DNA of 64,000 nucleotides. Source: Bacillus sp. F19. GTDB taxonomy: Bacteria > Bacillota > Bacilli > Bacillales > Bacillaceae. Positions within the stretch are counted from its first letter, which is position 1, and each line of letters starts with the position of its first letter. The DNA lies in assembly GCA_023823795.1 (NCBI GenBank), contig CP085710.1, positions 2,630,001-2,694,000 on the forward strand. Reading direction: 5' to 3'. The position numbers were made by a program, and so were the translations under genes. Under the pieces are notes generated by a model that did no database searches, had not been told where the DNA came from, and was given only the letters and a program-made list of their open reading frames with translations. This document shows, one piece after another, positions 3,760 to 62,045 of this stretch.

Positions 3760-3856
3760 ATGAATTGGGGCATTTAACCCCTCCTCACACCACACTACCG
3801 ACGACTCGCGTCTAAGGCTTTCAGGCCCACAGCATGATCGAGTGCCCCCATTGATA
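3760..3856 (-). ncRNA. EAR / epsC RNA element (processive antitermination)
   Basis: The 170-base gap between epsB and epsC holds a GC-rich block unlike the AT-rich spacers nearby. On the minus strand it starts AATGGGGGCAC (near 3850) and ends TGCCCCAATT (near 3765), so the ends close into a helix (TGGGGGCA with TGCCCCA). Inner segments such as GACGCGAGTC can form hairpins. The EAR (eps-associated RNA, called the epsC RNA motif in comparative surveys) sits exactly here in B. subtilis and promotes read-through of distal terminators in the eps operon. Position, size and closing helix fit; I could not run the covariance model. Confidence 0.78.
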
Positions 3857-3912
3857 GTGGATAGGAGACATCACCAGATATTCTTAATCAAGAACGAATT
3901 TTGCAAATTTTT

Positions 3913-22798: not shown

Positions 22799-22879
22799 TG
22801 GACAAAGCTAACTTGAGTTGAGACACAAGACAGGTTTCTACATATCGCATCACCCTCCCTATTCCGCGTAGGCATGAAG

Positions 22880-23070
22880 TGCATACGATAGGCAGGTCTA
22901 CTGACTCAGGTTCATTGTATTCTATTCCCTTCCCATTTTTCATTAGAAAAACAGTGGGCTTTTATTGAATTCTCCCCATTACAGTGGCGCGACCGTGTCG
23001 GATTTTCACCGAGCTTCCCTATTAAGCTAATACAGAAATGTACTCTTGTAATTAGCACCTATCGCTTGTA
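22880..23070 (-). promoter_or_regulatory. Cobalamin riboswitch in front of the metE remnant
   Basis: On the minus strand the aptamer runs from AGGTGCTAATTA through AATAGGGAAGCTCGGTG, CCGACACGGTCGCGCCACTG (B12 box at 22983-22989), TGGGGAG and GAGTCAGTAGACCTGCC. All conserved blocks are present, and only the downstream gene is broken. Confidence 0.9.
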
Positions 23071-23147
23071 AAAATATTAAATTTTTAAAATTCATTAACA
23101 ATTGTTTCTAAGCATAGCTGAAGCTTCGCTATCGTGCAAGCATAATA

Positions 23148-40791: not shown

Positions 40792-40807
40792 TATGTATCC
40801 CTGAATC

Positions 40808-40896
40808 ACATCCCTGCGCTGGCATTATCCAACAGGTTCATTCGGTCTACGGCAGTTAGCCGTACTCTCAGCCTGATTCCACAAGCTCCCGATTTA
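40808..40896 (-). promoter_or_regulatory. TPP riboswitch (THI box)
   Basis: The minus strand reads GGGAGCTTGTGG, CAGGCTGAGAGTACGGC, GACCGAATGAACCTGTTGG and ATAATGCCAGCGCAGGGA, which are the conserved pyrimidine- and pyrophosphate-sensor helices of the TPP aptamer. Confidence 0.95.
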
Positions 40897-40957
40897 TTTG
40901 ATTTTATGATACAAAGTCTACTCTTCTCGAGCTTGAATTGCAACAAATTATCTCTTA

Positions 40958-44173: not shown

Positions 44174-44295
44174 GCGATGAGCTGATTTGTGTAAGTCGAA
44201 GGACATGCGGTTTTCCGCACACATGAATGTGGTCATGTGGTTTTTCGCCTCAAAACGCAAGGAGACGACTGTTTTTACAGCGTCTCCTTTTTTAT
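44174..44295 (+). ncRNA. Candidate intergenic small RNA, about 120 nt
   Basis: The segment between the promoter at 44139-44167 and a strong intrinsic terminator (GGAGACG...CGTCTCC at 44261-44287, then T6) has no start codon with a binding site. It contains a repeated block, CATGCGGTTTTCCGC (about 44204-44218) and CATGTGGTTTTTCGC (about 44234-44248), of which the first is itself a small hairpin. It lies convergent to the esterase gene. I do not recognise an Rfam family; promoter, repeat and terminator together make a transcript likely. Confidence 0.5.
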
Positions 44296-45030: not shown

Positions 45031-45061
45031 CAAAAAAGGCCAATTCACTTAGAATTGGCCC
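45031..45061 (-). terminator. Terminator after yidC2
   Basis: On the minus strand GGCCAATTC and GAATTGGCC form a perfect stem followed by T6, directly after the YidC gene stop. Confidence 0.92.
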
Positions 45062-45067
45062 TGGGTG

Positions 45068-45889
45068 TTATGATTTCGCTATTGATAATGAGCTTGGTTC
45101 TGCTTGAAATAGCTTCTTTGTAAGCAATGTTTGAAGGATGACAAAGATTCCGCCGATCGTCCAGTATAGAGGCAATGCAGCAGGTGCTGTCAGAGAAAAT
45201 ATGCCAATCATGATTGGCGAGAGATAGCTGAACATCGCCATTTGCTTTCTCTGCGCCTCATCAAGACCGATTAATGTAACTCTTGACTGTAAAAAATAGA
45301 TCCCGGCAGCTAAAAGAGTCAATGTTAAATCAGGACTGCCCAAATTGAACCATAAAAACGAATGCTCAGCGATTTCAGGAGTTCTTTGAATGGCATAATA
45401 AAAGCCTGTCAGAAACGGCAGCTGTATAAGAAGAGGCAAGCACCCTCCCAAAGCAGCCAGCGGATTAATATTATGCTTTTGATAAATCTTCATCGTTTCC
45501 TGCTGAATCTTCTTCTTTGTTTCAGCATCTTTTGCTTTTTTCATTTTTTCCTGCAGTGCTTTTAATTCAGGCTGTGCTTTTTCCATTTTGCTTTTCATAT
45601 GCATCTGATCTTTTGACTGCTTTAAAGCAAATGGCAAAAGCAAGAATCTGATCAACAGCGTGACCAGGATAATTGACAATCCGTAGCTTCCTTGAAACCA
45701 GTCCGCAAATGTTGTAAGCAATACAGAGAAGGGATACACAATATAGTGATTAAAAAAACCAGGTGTCTGGCCTGTAATATCCTGAATGTTTCCATTTGCC
45801 TGCTGGCAGCCGCTCAGTAAAATCAGCAGTGTAATTCCTAACAGTATGAGTGATGTTTTCCGTGAAATGAATGCAGCTTTCTTTTCCAT
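45068..45889 (-). CDS. yidC2: Membrane protein insertase YidC2 (YqjG/MisCB-like)
   Basis: A 273-residue Oxa1/YidC lipoprotein that inserts proteins into the cytoplasmic membrane. A lipobox LLSGC puts the lipidated cysteine at 28. Conserved helices include SYGLSIILVTLLIRFLLLPF (with the functional Arg of the hydrophilic groove), NPLAALGGCLPLLIQLPFL and ALPLYWTIGGIFVILQTLL, with a basic cytoplasmic loop between them. The ATG at 45889 follows CAAGGAGG, but that site is buried in a helix with codons 90-93 of the upstream ORF. This matches the mifM-yqjG arrangement of B. subtilis, in which the second YidC is induced when insertion fails. Confidence 0.9.
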   Translation of the reverse strand: MEKKAAFISRKTSLILLGITLLILLSGCQQANGNIQDITGQTPGFFNHYIVYPFSVLLTTFADWFQGSYGLSIILVTLLIRFLLLPFALKQSKDQMHMKSKMEKAQPELKALQEKMKKAKDAETKKKIQQETMKIYQKHNINPLAALGGCLPLLIQLPFLTGFYYAIQRTPEIAEHSFLWFNLGSPDLTLTLLAAGIYFLQSRVTLIGLDEAQRKQMAMFSYLSPIMIGIFSLTAPAALPLYWTIGGIFVILQTLLTKKLFQAEPSSLSIAKS

Positions 45890-46206
45890 TTAAATCCTCC
45901 TTGGTGTTTTCCATTTTGAGCTAAACTTCCAAGAAGGATATTAGATGGTACATCATCACCTGAATCATACCGCCTCATTTGTCTGGTAATCCATATGGAT
46001 ATGGCATTCGTTTCATTTTGCATCCGCTGCGAGGGAAATTGATTCTCCTGCTCTTTTTTCATGACCGGCTTTAAAAACGGATGCTTCTTTAATGATTGAT
46101 TCAGCAAGTAGCCGAAAGCAAACATGGCTGCTACAGTAAAGAAAAAGCTTAACAGCGATAAATATGTCGCCAAATCATGTGTAAATTCTAAGATCATCTG
46201 CTGCAT
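45838..46206 (-). CDS. mifM: MifM-like arrest peptide / membrane-insertion monitor
   Basis: A 122-residue small protein. One membrane helix (17-36, LSLLSFFFTVAAMFAFGYLL) is followed by a basic linker and then AISIWITRQMRRYDSGDD (68-85). The I-x2-W-I spacing with following basic and acidic residues resembles the MifM arrest region (RI..WI...M then an acidic run) known to stall ribosomes in B. subtilis. The ORF overlaps the start of yidC2 by 52 bases. AAAGGAGG precedes its ATG. Codons 90-93 form the 5' arm of the helix that hides the yidC2 binding site. Exact arrest residues cannot be proven by reading. Confidence 0.78.
   Translation of the reverse strand: MQQMILEFTHDLATYLSLLSFFFTVAAMFAFGYLLNQSLKKHPFLKPVMKKEQENQFPSQRMQNETNAISIWITRQMRRYDSGDDVPSNILLGSLAQNGKHQGGFKWKRKLHSFHGKHHSYC
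45894..45939 (-). promoter_or_regulatory. Hairpin sequestering the yidC2 ribosome binding site
   Basis: On the minus strand ATCCTTCTTGG (45939-45929) pairs with CCAAGGAGGAT (45904-45894) over 11 positions with one G-U pair. The 3' arm is the yidC2 Shine-Dalgarno sequence; the 5' arm lies in the MifM-like ORF just after its putative stall site. Confidence 0.82.
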
Positions 46207-46269
46207 GCATTCACCTCCTTTTCATACCATCAGTATATACTTATAAATAGGAAAAAGAAAGTGGATGAC

Positions 46270-46481: not shown

Positions 46482-46511
46482 ATAAAAAACGCCCACCGAA
46501 ACCATGAGCGA
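46482..46511 (-). terminator. Terminator downstream of the bluB-proximal cobalamin riboswitch
   Basis: On the minus strand CGCTCATGG and GGTGGGCG form a short stem followed by T6, about 75 bases after the aptamer. A second stem (ACGAGAA...TTCTCGT, 46523-46558) lies between them and could be the anti-terminator side. Confidence 0.68.
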
Positions 46512-46584
46512 ACTTAAACTAAAACGAGAAAAAAGGATATACTTAAAAGCACTTCTCGTCCCGCCCTCTCAATTCCCGAAGCAA

Positions 46585-46735
46585 TAAAGGCAGATCTCCT
46601 GATTTATGAATCACCCTGCTTTAAGGCCTTCCCATAAAATAAAATTACAGTGCGTTCGCATTTACAGCTGCGGGGAAAGTTCTGGATTCACACCACATTT
46701 CCCTATTAAGTCCACCTTAGGACACCTTCACTGTT
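46585..46735 (-). promoter_or_regulatory. Cobalamin riboswitch, apparently orphan
   Basis: The minus strand reads AATAGGGAAATGTGGTGTGA, then CCCGCAGCTGTAAATGCGAACG, ACTGTAA, GGGAAGGC and ATCAGGAGATCTGCC, the conserved core of a cobalamin aptamer variant. It lies directly after bluB; the only sequence downstream on this strand before mifM is a gene remnant. Confidence 0.85.
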
Positions 46736-46750
46736 AAATAATTATGTGTT

Positions 46751-47407
46751 TCAATCACCTTGATGTTTGTTTTCTCCCCATTTATTCTCATAGATAAGCT
46801 TTGCTAGAGGCTGCCTTTTTTCCCAATTAGCTAATTCTAAAATAGGTTTCTCCGGATATTCATCCGTATAACCAATAGATAGAAGAGCGATAGGATCAAT
46901 ATGCAGCGGGATATCTAATATGTCACGAATATCATTCTTTTTATAAAAACTTACCCACCCTAAGGCAAGCCCTTCAGCACATGCTGCCAACCACATATTT
47001 TGAATGGCACATGCTGTTGAAAGAATATCTGTTTCAGGAATTGAATTTCGCCCTAATACATGTGAACCTCCTCTTGCAGGGTCGCAAGTTACACATATTG
47101 TGATTGGAGCTTCTTTTAAACCTTCCACTTTTAAACCAAGAAATCTTGTTTCTCTTTCCCCATCATAATGAATAGCTAATGCTCGTCTTTCCTTGTCTGC
47201 TGCCCAAGCTAATTTTTCTTTTATTTCATCAGAAGAAATGATTATGAAATTCCAAGGCTGCATAAATCCAACTGAAGGTGCATGATGAGCAGCGTTTAAT
47301 ATTCTATGTATAATATCTTTAGAAATAGGGGCAGACAGAAAGCTTCTAATATCTCTCCTCCTGTAAATCACTTTATAAACAGATTCTTTTTCTTCTTTAG
47401 AAAACAT
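46751..47407 (-). CDS. bluB: 5,6-dimethylbenzimidazole synthase
   Basis: A 218-residue flavin-destroying enzyme of the nitroreductase fold that uses O2 to convert FMNH2 to the lower ligand of B12. Diagnostic stretches are IYRRRDIRSFLSAPISKDII, HHAPSVGFMQPWNFIII and NMWLAACAEGLALGWVSFY. The SVGFMQPW and acid/Ser positions separate BluB from general nitroreductases. An AGAGGAG site precedes the ATG. Its place beside a corrin operon supports full cobalamin synthesis with an oxygen-dependent lower ligand, although the corrin genes follow the oxygen-independent route. Confidence 0.9.
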   Translation of the reverse strand: MFSKEEKESVYKVIYRRRDIRSFLSAPISKDIIHRILNAAHHAPSVGFMQPWNFIIISSDEIKEKLAWAADKERRALAIHYDGERETRFLGLKVEGLKEAPITICVTCDPARGGSHVLGRNSIPETDILSTACAIQNMWLAACAEGLALGWVSFYKKNDIRDILDIPLHIDPIALLSIGYTDEYPEKPILELANWEKRQPLAKLIYENKWGENKHQGD

Positions 47408-61286: not shown

Positions 61287-61349
61287 TACATAGCAAAAGA
61301 ACATAGCATTTTCTACTACACATCTACCTATAAGCCCGTAGGTATGCGT

Positions 61350-61516
61350 AAAAGATAGGCAGGTCTCCTGACTAAGGTTCATTGCTTTATTGCGTCTTCC
61401 CGAATAATATCAGTGACATTTGCAATATAGCTCCCCATTACAGTGGCGGGTACCGCGACGGCTTTTCACCGTACTTCCCTTTTAATCAAAATCTTGGTAA
61501 GATTTTTGAACCTATC
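61350..61516 (-). promoter_or_regulatory. Cobalamin riboswitch of the cob operon
   Basis: The minus strand shows AAAAGGGAAGTACGGTG, GCGGTACCCGCCACTG (B12 box), TAATGGGGAGC and TTAGTCAGGAGACCTGCC. It controls the whole cbiW-to-bluB direction. Confidence 0.93.
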
Positions 61517-61858
61517 TTTAATTTATTTAATTATTATTCTTAATGTTATTATTTTTTCGTAAATTTGTCTATTTCGAAATATATATTAAACAAGAATGCA
61601 GAAATTAGCAAACTGCTTTTACATCACATATTGAATTTAAACTGTTTTTTTCACAAAAAAACATCCGCTCAGTTCTCTTTGCGGATAAAACGAAAGCACT
61701 AAAAGACATAAAAATAAGCCAATCCCGCTGCTGTTAGTTACACCGTTCATATCCCCTGAAATGTCACAAAAAACCTTTTTGTTCACGCTAAAACATAGAA
61801 AAATAAATAGACAACTGCAAAACCTTGTAGTAAGGTAAAGACAAATTAATCAATCTTA
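61517..61858. other. AT-rich spacer between two divergent cobalamin riboswitches
   Basis: No gene is supported. A terminator-like hairpin reading leftward (ATCCGC 61663-61668 and GCGGAT 61681-61686, then T7 on the minus strand) stands without an upstream gene. It may insulate the cob operon from stray antisense transcription. Promoters for both riboswitch transcripts must lie here, but I cannot assign them securely. Confidence 0.5.
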
Positions 61859-62045
61859 ACAGGTGCTATGCATGTGAGAGTGTGTATAGCTTAATAGGGA
61901 AGCTCGGTGTAAGTCCGACACGGTTCCCGCCACTGTAAATCTGAGCGACCTGCATAATGTCACTGCTTTTTATATTAAAAGCGGGAAGACGCAGGAAGCA
62001 ATGAAGATGAGTCAGGAGACCTGCCTGTATAAAGAACATAATGTG
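61859..62045 (+). promoter_or_regulatory. Cobalamin riboswitch of cbiMNQ
   Basis: The plus strand reads AGGTGCTATGCATG, AATAGGGAAGCTCGGTG, GTCCGACACGGTTCCCGCCACTG (B12 box at about 61950-61956), GCGGGAAGACGC and GAGTCAGGAGACCTGCC, all conserved aptamer blocks. Confidence 0.94.

Follow-up and report, generated by a model that had tools for sequence, protein, structure and literature searches.

MifM of B. subtilis, the YidC monitor of Bacillus, is encoded by an upstream ORF (uORF) of yidC2 (yqjG). This ORF has 95 codons, and its stop lies a few codons after the arrest site and before the yidC2 Shine-Dalgarno (SD) sequence. The arrest motif of MifM has been published as RIxxWIxxxxxMNxxxxDEED (PMC7897499), stalling takes place at codons 89–92, which are W+16 to W+19 when counted from the tryptophan codon of the motif (PMC4423224, PMC6037786), and M90 of ribosomal protein L22 has been reported as the residue that permits efficient stalling. 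A MifM homology group of 572 sequences from Firmicutes was described by Fujiwara et al. 2024 (PMC10987492). The filters given in the accessible part of that paper are a position upstream of yidC, an N-terminal localization signal, a soluble part of at least 30 aa and, between residues 70 and 100, a 5-residue acidic window with a value below −0.3.

Other systems share parts of this plan. CliM of Clostridia, as described in the accessible part of PMC13183943, is also a YidC-monitoring uORF of yidC2 with a stem-loop covering the yidC2 start. Unlike the ORF studied here, it has the motif KYxIW and stalls near or at its stop, and no read-through into yidC2 is described in that part of the source. 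SecM, VemP, ApcA, ApdA and ApdP are likewise arrest peptides encoded upstream of localization-machinery genes, and the targets of SecM and VemP are induced by arrest; however, in the sources as far as available, all five have unrelated motifs and arrest near the C-terminus. The coat-lysis pair of phage MS2 resembles our locus in that the upstream ORF overlaps the start of its target by about 50 nt at a structured ribosome binding site, but there upstream termination activates the target, and the accessible part of PMC12548453 makes no mention of an arrest peptide in the pair. The main texts of PMC10987492 and PMC7897499 nowhere use a word that begins with "overlap"; the supplements of the former may show the overlap. 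Among the matches listed for literature on MifM, arrest peptides, leader-peptide overlap and UUG starts, no title or abstract dealt with an overlap layout of mifM.

We analysed a window of 64,000 nucleotides from a Bacillaceae genome (Bacillus sp. F19) which lies near Metabacillus and whose relatives include M. idriensis, M. indicus, Bacillus sp. PAMC26568 and one genome labelled Peribacillus frigoritolerans. In this window, an ORF of 122 codons with an ATG start (46206–45838, − strand) lies directly upstream of yidC2 in the same orientation. The initial annotation had proposed that it overlaps yidC2, and its coordinates are as proposed, with an overlap of 52 nt. Unlike B. subtilis MifM (122 versus 95 codons), the ORF runs through the SD and AUG of yidC2 and stops 52 nt inside this gene, 37 codons beyond D85, so the layout with a stop before the yidC2 SD was not found in the window. 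The parts of the locus are as follows.

46214..46219, − strand: SD sequence AGGAGG of the mifM-type ORF, kept in 8 aligned upstream regions of the genus
45838..46206, − strand: mifM-type ORF, 122 codons (122 aa), with homologues in 8/8 same-genus genomes (own included), also aligned
46099..46167, − strand: hydrophobic stretch, codons 14–36, presumed N-out/C-in membrane helix with Lys residues just after it (boundaries by eye)
45952..46002, − strand: arrest-like region, codons 69–85, ISIWITRQMRRYDSGDD, within the profile match of residues 66–89 and with conserved W72, D84 and D85
45941..45948, − strand: outer 5′ strand of the predicted hairpin (UAA and CCAU), from folding
45929..45939, − strand: 5′ arm of the predicted switch hairpin (anti-SD), codons 90–93, from folding
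45894..45904, − strand: 3′ arm of the predicted switch hairpin, containing the yidC2 SD AAGGAGG (45896–45902), from folding and SD accessibility
45886..45893, − strand: outer 3′ strand of the predicted hairpin (UUA and AUGG), holding the yidC2 start codon, from folding
45838..45889, − strand: overlap, i.e. the end of the mifM-type ORF inside yidC2 in another frame, with reduced yidC2 third-position change in overlap genera
45068..45889, − strand: yidC2, 273 aa, YidC/Oxa1 insertase (PF02096, 60KD_IMP, E 6.7e-44; TIGR03592)
45036..45062, − strand: intrinsic-terminator-like hairpin 3′ of yidC2, from a sequence scan

Searches of Pfam and NCBIfam (E up to 1) and of PDB sequences (E up to 10) with the ORF were without a hit. 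A single hhalign profile-profile match to Bacillus-type MifM was found (P 2.8e-5, probability 74%), which is limited to residues 66–89 of the ORF, and one alignment spans both the ORF homologues and Bacillus-type MifM; the rows of the Bacillus-type genus g6 were taken as B. subtilis-type MifM on the basis of their motif. When the ORF was aligned with its homologues and MifM of other Bacillaceae, W72, D84 and D85 were among nine invariant columns of the 12 homologues, and the W column of the wider alignment holds W in 116/140 rows. Like B. subtilis MifM, the ORF thus has one N-terminal helix and a W-I ... acidic region; the single membrane helix of the initial annotation agrees with a crude count in which 18/18 residues of an 18-residue stretch are apolar or small.

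The likeness of residues 69–85 to the MifM arrest region, also claimed initially, stands as far as the profile match goes, but the published motif is kept only in part. In ungapped alignment with it, I69, W72, I73 and D85 (the first of the four acids) are kept. In contrast, A68, R79 and Y80 replace R69, M80 and N81, and V86, P87 and S88 (W+14 to W+16) replace the last three acids, at a part of the motif where acids are reported to be required (PMC13183943). The strict B. subtilis arrest sequence is therefore not present in this ORF, 6/10 critical residues being different. The filters of Fujiwara et al. 2024, as available to us, all admit the ORF: its acidic window DSGDD (residues 81–85) has a value of −0.6, counted by hand, and the localization signal was assessed by a crude residue count. 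L22 of this genome has both M90, as in B. subtilis, and F85. As judged by its sequence, the ORF is a MifM homologue, of the right homology group though without the strict B. subtilis motif. In the ORF of the window and in its next relatives, x-Pro takes the place of the second acidic pair that follows W (DDVPS, DDNPA, DDVPP and DDLPP, in loci such as L001, L009, L010, L011 and L052). Pro at W+15 occurs in 13/64 loci with the overlap layout described below, and it might shift or alter the arrest site.

Homologues of the ORF were found in 8/8 genomes of the genus and in 12/61 genomes overall (own included), while a wider profile (A2) matches 68/81 genomes of the family. A mifM match was present in all 68 family genomes having two YidC matches and in none of the 13 having one. 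At the level of the order, the profile matched 136/397 genomes and 64/135 genera at E 0.01, and its weakest matches there are doubtful.

Folding reproduced exactly the 11-pair helix which the initial annotation had described between codons 90–93 and the yidC2 SD (45929–45939 with 45894–45904), and it prolonged this helix outward by seven pairs, UAA/UUA (45941–45943 with 45891–45893) and CCAU/AUGG (45945–45948 with 45886–45889). The AUG of yidC2 is also paired, within the last four outer pairs. The hairpin has an MFE of −22.2 kcal/mol (z −3.94; 0/200 shuffles as stable), and a longer folded stretch gave z −3.00 (1/200). The window has 27 genes with an SD, and that of yidC2 is the least accessible of them (unpaired value 0.0007 with same-size segments); its MFE is the second lowest. 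For 96 genes from the window and 11 related loci, the median unpaired value was 0.42, and the nine least accessible SDs all belong to yidC2.

Covariation was tested with one locus from each of 54 genera at 18 positions beside the SD core. Pairing exceeded that with shuffled partners at inner position 2 (42/54 genera; 0/1000 shuffles) and at outer positions 2 and 4 (6 and 1 of 1000), and several types of base pair occur there. No clear excess was seen at the remaining 15/18 positions, inner position 7 pairing less than shuffles, and in the 19 overlap genera alone covariation was weak. According to the folding model, the predicted hairpin sequesters the yidC2 SD, as in the MifM homology group.

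The SD-pairing arm is centred 56–65 nt past the W codon in 39/42 overlap loci and 77/98 short loci, the latter being those that stop before yidC2. We modelled the ribosome footprint as a simple mask whose edge lies 16 nt beyond the first nucleotide of the codon in the P site. Under this mask, the window SD stays closed (0.001) with residue 85 in the P site and opens from codon 86 (0.46–0.55 at codons 86–91, 0.85 at 92). The earlier proposal that a pause near residue 85 would open yidC2 therefore fails for residue 85 itself in this model but holds from 86 on. That the SD is only about half free (0.46–0.55) with the arm masked counts against the switch. Mean SD exposure in 64 overlap loci was 0.08 at W+13, 0.24 at W+14, 0.47 at W+15 and 0.55 at W+16, and in 101 short loci it was 0.16 at W+14, 0.30 at W+15, 0.49 at W+16 and 0.64 at W+17. 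On average, the SD opens with the P site at W+14 to W+16 in the overlap layout versus W+15 to W+17 in the short one, to be compared with the W+16 to W+19 of the stalls known from B. subtilis.

A MifM-type switch is supported by sequence homology and synteny, by the strict association with a second YidC, by the SD hairpin, by the similar distance of the arm from W in both layouts and by M90 of L22. We put the probability that a MifM-type arrest switch controls yidC2 at roughly 0.8, a figure which does not include any effect of the overlap. As an orthologue of MifM, the ORF product would have its N-terminal helix inserted by YidC. We infer that, when insertion is slow, the region around W72...D84-D85 would stall its own ribosome near codons 86–91; the stalled ribosome would then sit on the 5′ arm (45929–45939), the SD and AUG of yidC2 would be freed, and YidC2 would be made. 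Efficient insertion would release the arrest. In the overlap layout, the released ribosome would read through hairpin, SD and AUG and end 52 nt inside yidC2, instead of stopping before the SD as in the B. subtilis layout. We suggest that termination-reinitiation coupling would thereby be lost and the OFF state made tighter, while AUG would give de novo initiation its strength back in the ON state. Initiation driven by arrest (ON) and run-through of an escaped ribosome (OFF) would in this way be kept apart.

Several RNA elements lie in the neighbourhood of the locus and elsewhere in the window.

46572..46744, − strand: orphan cobalamin riboswitch, 59.6 bits, with a terminator-like hairpin at 46490–46510 (− strand)
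44174..44284, + strand: BsrF sRNA, Rfam RF01411, 85.5 bits
43482..43702: T-box leader
61341..61530, 61846..62042 and 22874..23077: three further cobalamin riboswitches, in the order listed
3767..3876 and 40794..40902: epsC RNA and TPP riboswitch, in the order listed

The orphan cobalamin riboswitch is located between a nitroreductase-family gene (46751–47407; BluB-like by eye) and mifM. In one relative (G002), the order is riboswitch, three ABC-importer genes (Pfam FecCD, ABC_tran and Peripla_BP_2; btuCDF-like by context) and mifM; another (G006) holds remnants of the three importer genes, and the window has lost them. Control of mifM-yidC2 by this riboswitch is not favoured, since the importer genes intervene in the first relative and mifM keeps its own conserved upstream block, found directly upstream of it in 8/8 genomes. 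B12-controlled read-through into mifM-yidC2 after the loss of the importer is conceivable. A promoter scan gave no site above chance (4 found, 4.7 expected). The BsrF sRNA was found near yidC2 also in all seven other genomes of the genus.

The initial annotation regarded the roughly 37 further codons as a variant layout. This variant is real and lineage-wide: among 165 non-redundant mifM-yidC2 loci, the small ORF ends inside yidC2 in 64 and stops before it in 101. The overlap ranges from 7 to 125 nt (46–67 nt in 42/64), and short loci stop 2 to 69 nt before the yidC2 start (24–33 nt in 74/101). These 165 loci are those analysed from our larger set (236/248 loci, four "no mifM" loci and one "no yidC" locus among them, giving 231 rows, 167 of them non-redundant), which left out the L22 locus and 11 long neighbourhood loci whose genomes were already represented. 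A smaller set comprised 191 loci, giving 187 rows and 141 non-redundant rows, 140 of them with a W anchor. In a YidC2 tree from which the first 30 residues were omitted (quick search, midpoint root, long branches flagged), 59/64 overlap loci fall in one clade of 73 rows, and no fewer than 7 changes of layout are required (shuffled mean 51, minimum 43). The overlap is a conserved variant layout of a known switch type in this bacterium and many relatives.

Start codons differ between the two layouts. In the larger set, where yidC2 starts were called by SD match with ATG not favoured, overlap loci have ATG in 53, GTG in 9 and TTG in 2 (n=64), and short loci have TTG in 70, ATG in 24 and GTG in 7 (n=101). 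In the smaller set, 19/140 rows are without exactly one SD-bearing yidC2 start. The yidC2 of the window has AUG, unlike the 29 short-layout g6 rows of Bacillus-type MifM, which have TTG (22) or GTG (7). Short loci nested in the overlap clade have TTG in 13/14, and overlap loci outside the clade have it in 0/5. Over 6 independent pairs, start codon and layout agreed on average in 4.1 and disagreed in 0.1 (median p 0.125), and over 7 independent pairs of the smaller set in 4.7 and 0.0 (median p 0.0625); the 6 pairs are too few for significance of this link. The start of spoIIIJ is TTG in 20/20 genomes examined (loci L249–L268), 16 of which have the overlap layout. Because spoIIIJ there keeps TTG, AUG is specific to yidC2 in these 16 genomes. 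TTG of spoIIIJ, present in all 20 genomes, appears as a conserved weak start of the main insertase.

One account of the long overlap, to which we give slightly less than even odds, is that the MifM switch is real but the overlap is neutral: an ancestor lost its stop, the next stop lay inside yidC2, and the arrangement was kept by descent. The concentration of 59/64 overlap loci in one clade is in favour of this, and so is the test for frame-preserving (3n) indels, where 7/13 changes in overlap rows versus 16/55 in short rows did not differ significantly (Fisher p = 0.11); these indels were dropped as proof of selection on the tail. The longer yidC2 signal region that accompanies the overlap points the same way, needing only 4 changes on the tree, and it was treated as a lineage trait and not as an independent correlate. 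The lipobox Cys of YidC2 lies at median residue 29 in overlap loci versus 21 in short ones, with the motif in 63/64 and 64/101 rows, respectively. The n-region before this Cys is about 8 residues longer in the overlap layout, which is mostly a lineage trait.

Three observations go against neutrality. In the 46-row overlap clade of the smaller set, 39 rows have no stop in the mifM frame between W+17 codons and the start of yidC2 (other frames 13 and 14), versus 3/94 outside (other frames 36 and 47), and both layout states look maintained, though relatedness inflates these counts. Third-position change in yidC2 is reduced inside the overlap relative to the part further on, with a median ratio of 0.46 in 9 overlap genera versus 0.90 in 16 short genera (p = 0.009, or 0.02 when one near-invariant genus is left out). 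The start codons also change along with the layout. The raw distribution of W-to-start distances mod 3 (frames 2, 1 and 0: 47, 17 and 0 in overlap loci; 40, 26 and 35 in short loci) was set aside as proof of selection, being largely due to shared ancestry.

A more far-reaching reading, which we advance tentatively and think rather unlikely, is that the overlap constitutes a second switch architecture, with no stop before the target, escape from arrest as an active OFF signal, a start upgraded from UUG to AUG, and layout and start codon evolving as one module. The released ribosome would clear any initiating 30S from the SD and AUG and could not reinitiate. In the accessible part of PMC12548453, translational coupling falls three- to tenfold yet persists to a spacing of about +40 nt, and one study found no coupling at an overlap of 25 nt. 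Because of these distances, yidC2 would be coupled to the termination of mifM in the short layout but not in the overlap layout, and the weak UUG of the former and AUG of the latter fit coupling in the short layout only. However, the same source ascribes coupling by RNA unfolding to the MS2 coat-lysis pair, whose overlap is 50 nt. Coupling is therefore not excluded by such an overlap alone, and a second architecture becomes less likely.

Coupling of the MS2 kind, in which a ribosome terminating inside yidC2 would hold the start region open without occluding it, would itself give the overlap a function, and the prevalent overlap of 46–67 nt is near the 50 nt reported in the accessible part of PMC12548453. 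We consider this improbable here, but a rival to be taken seriously. From the coordinates, a ribosome that ends at 45838 would have both arms (45886–45948) upstream of it and beyond the expected reach of its footprint, and the hairpin could form again behind it. The upgrade to AUG offers no hint of coupling.

Slightly less probable still is that programmed arrest does not occur, and that the hairpin is unfolded by ordinary translation of the ORF, to which yidC2 is thereby coupled. The loss of 6/10 critical arrest residues would agree with this, and a passing ribosome would open the hairpin briefly under the RNA-unfolding model (accessible part of PMC12548453). But three features argue for arrest: the peptide evolves fast, yet W and the acidic pair belong to its best conserved positions; the association with a second YidC is strict; and the acidic residues are closely followed by the arm. 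The least probable explanation is a function of the tail peptide itself beyond the arrest region (e.g. in turnover or membrane contact), from which the overlap would follow: the third-position suppression in yidC2 is compatible with it, but the common tail letters (GG, W) result from in-frame reading of the SD and start codon, and 17/64 overlap loci use another frame and hence another tail.

A MifM-type arrest switch remains our reading of the locus. The acidic patch near the peptidyl transferase centre is here D-D followed by x-Pro, which widens the set of sequences that would need the ability to arrest. A family thought of as having one plan, i.e. arrest, stop, hairpin and target, becomes a family with two conserved layouts that have different start codons. 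This makes a general question testable, namely how much of the OFF state is due to the hairpin and how much to what the escaped ribosome does next, whether it terminates and reinitiates or runs through.
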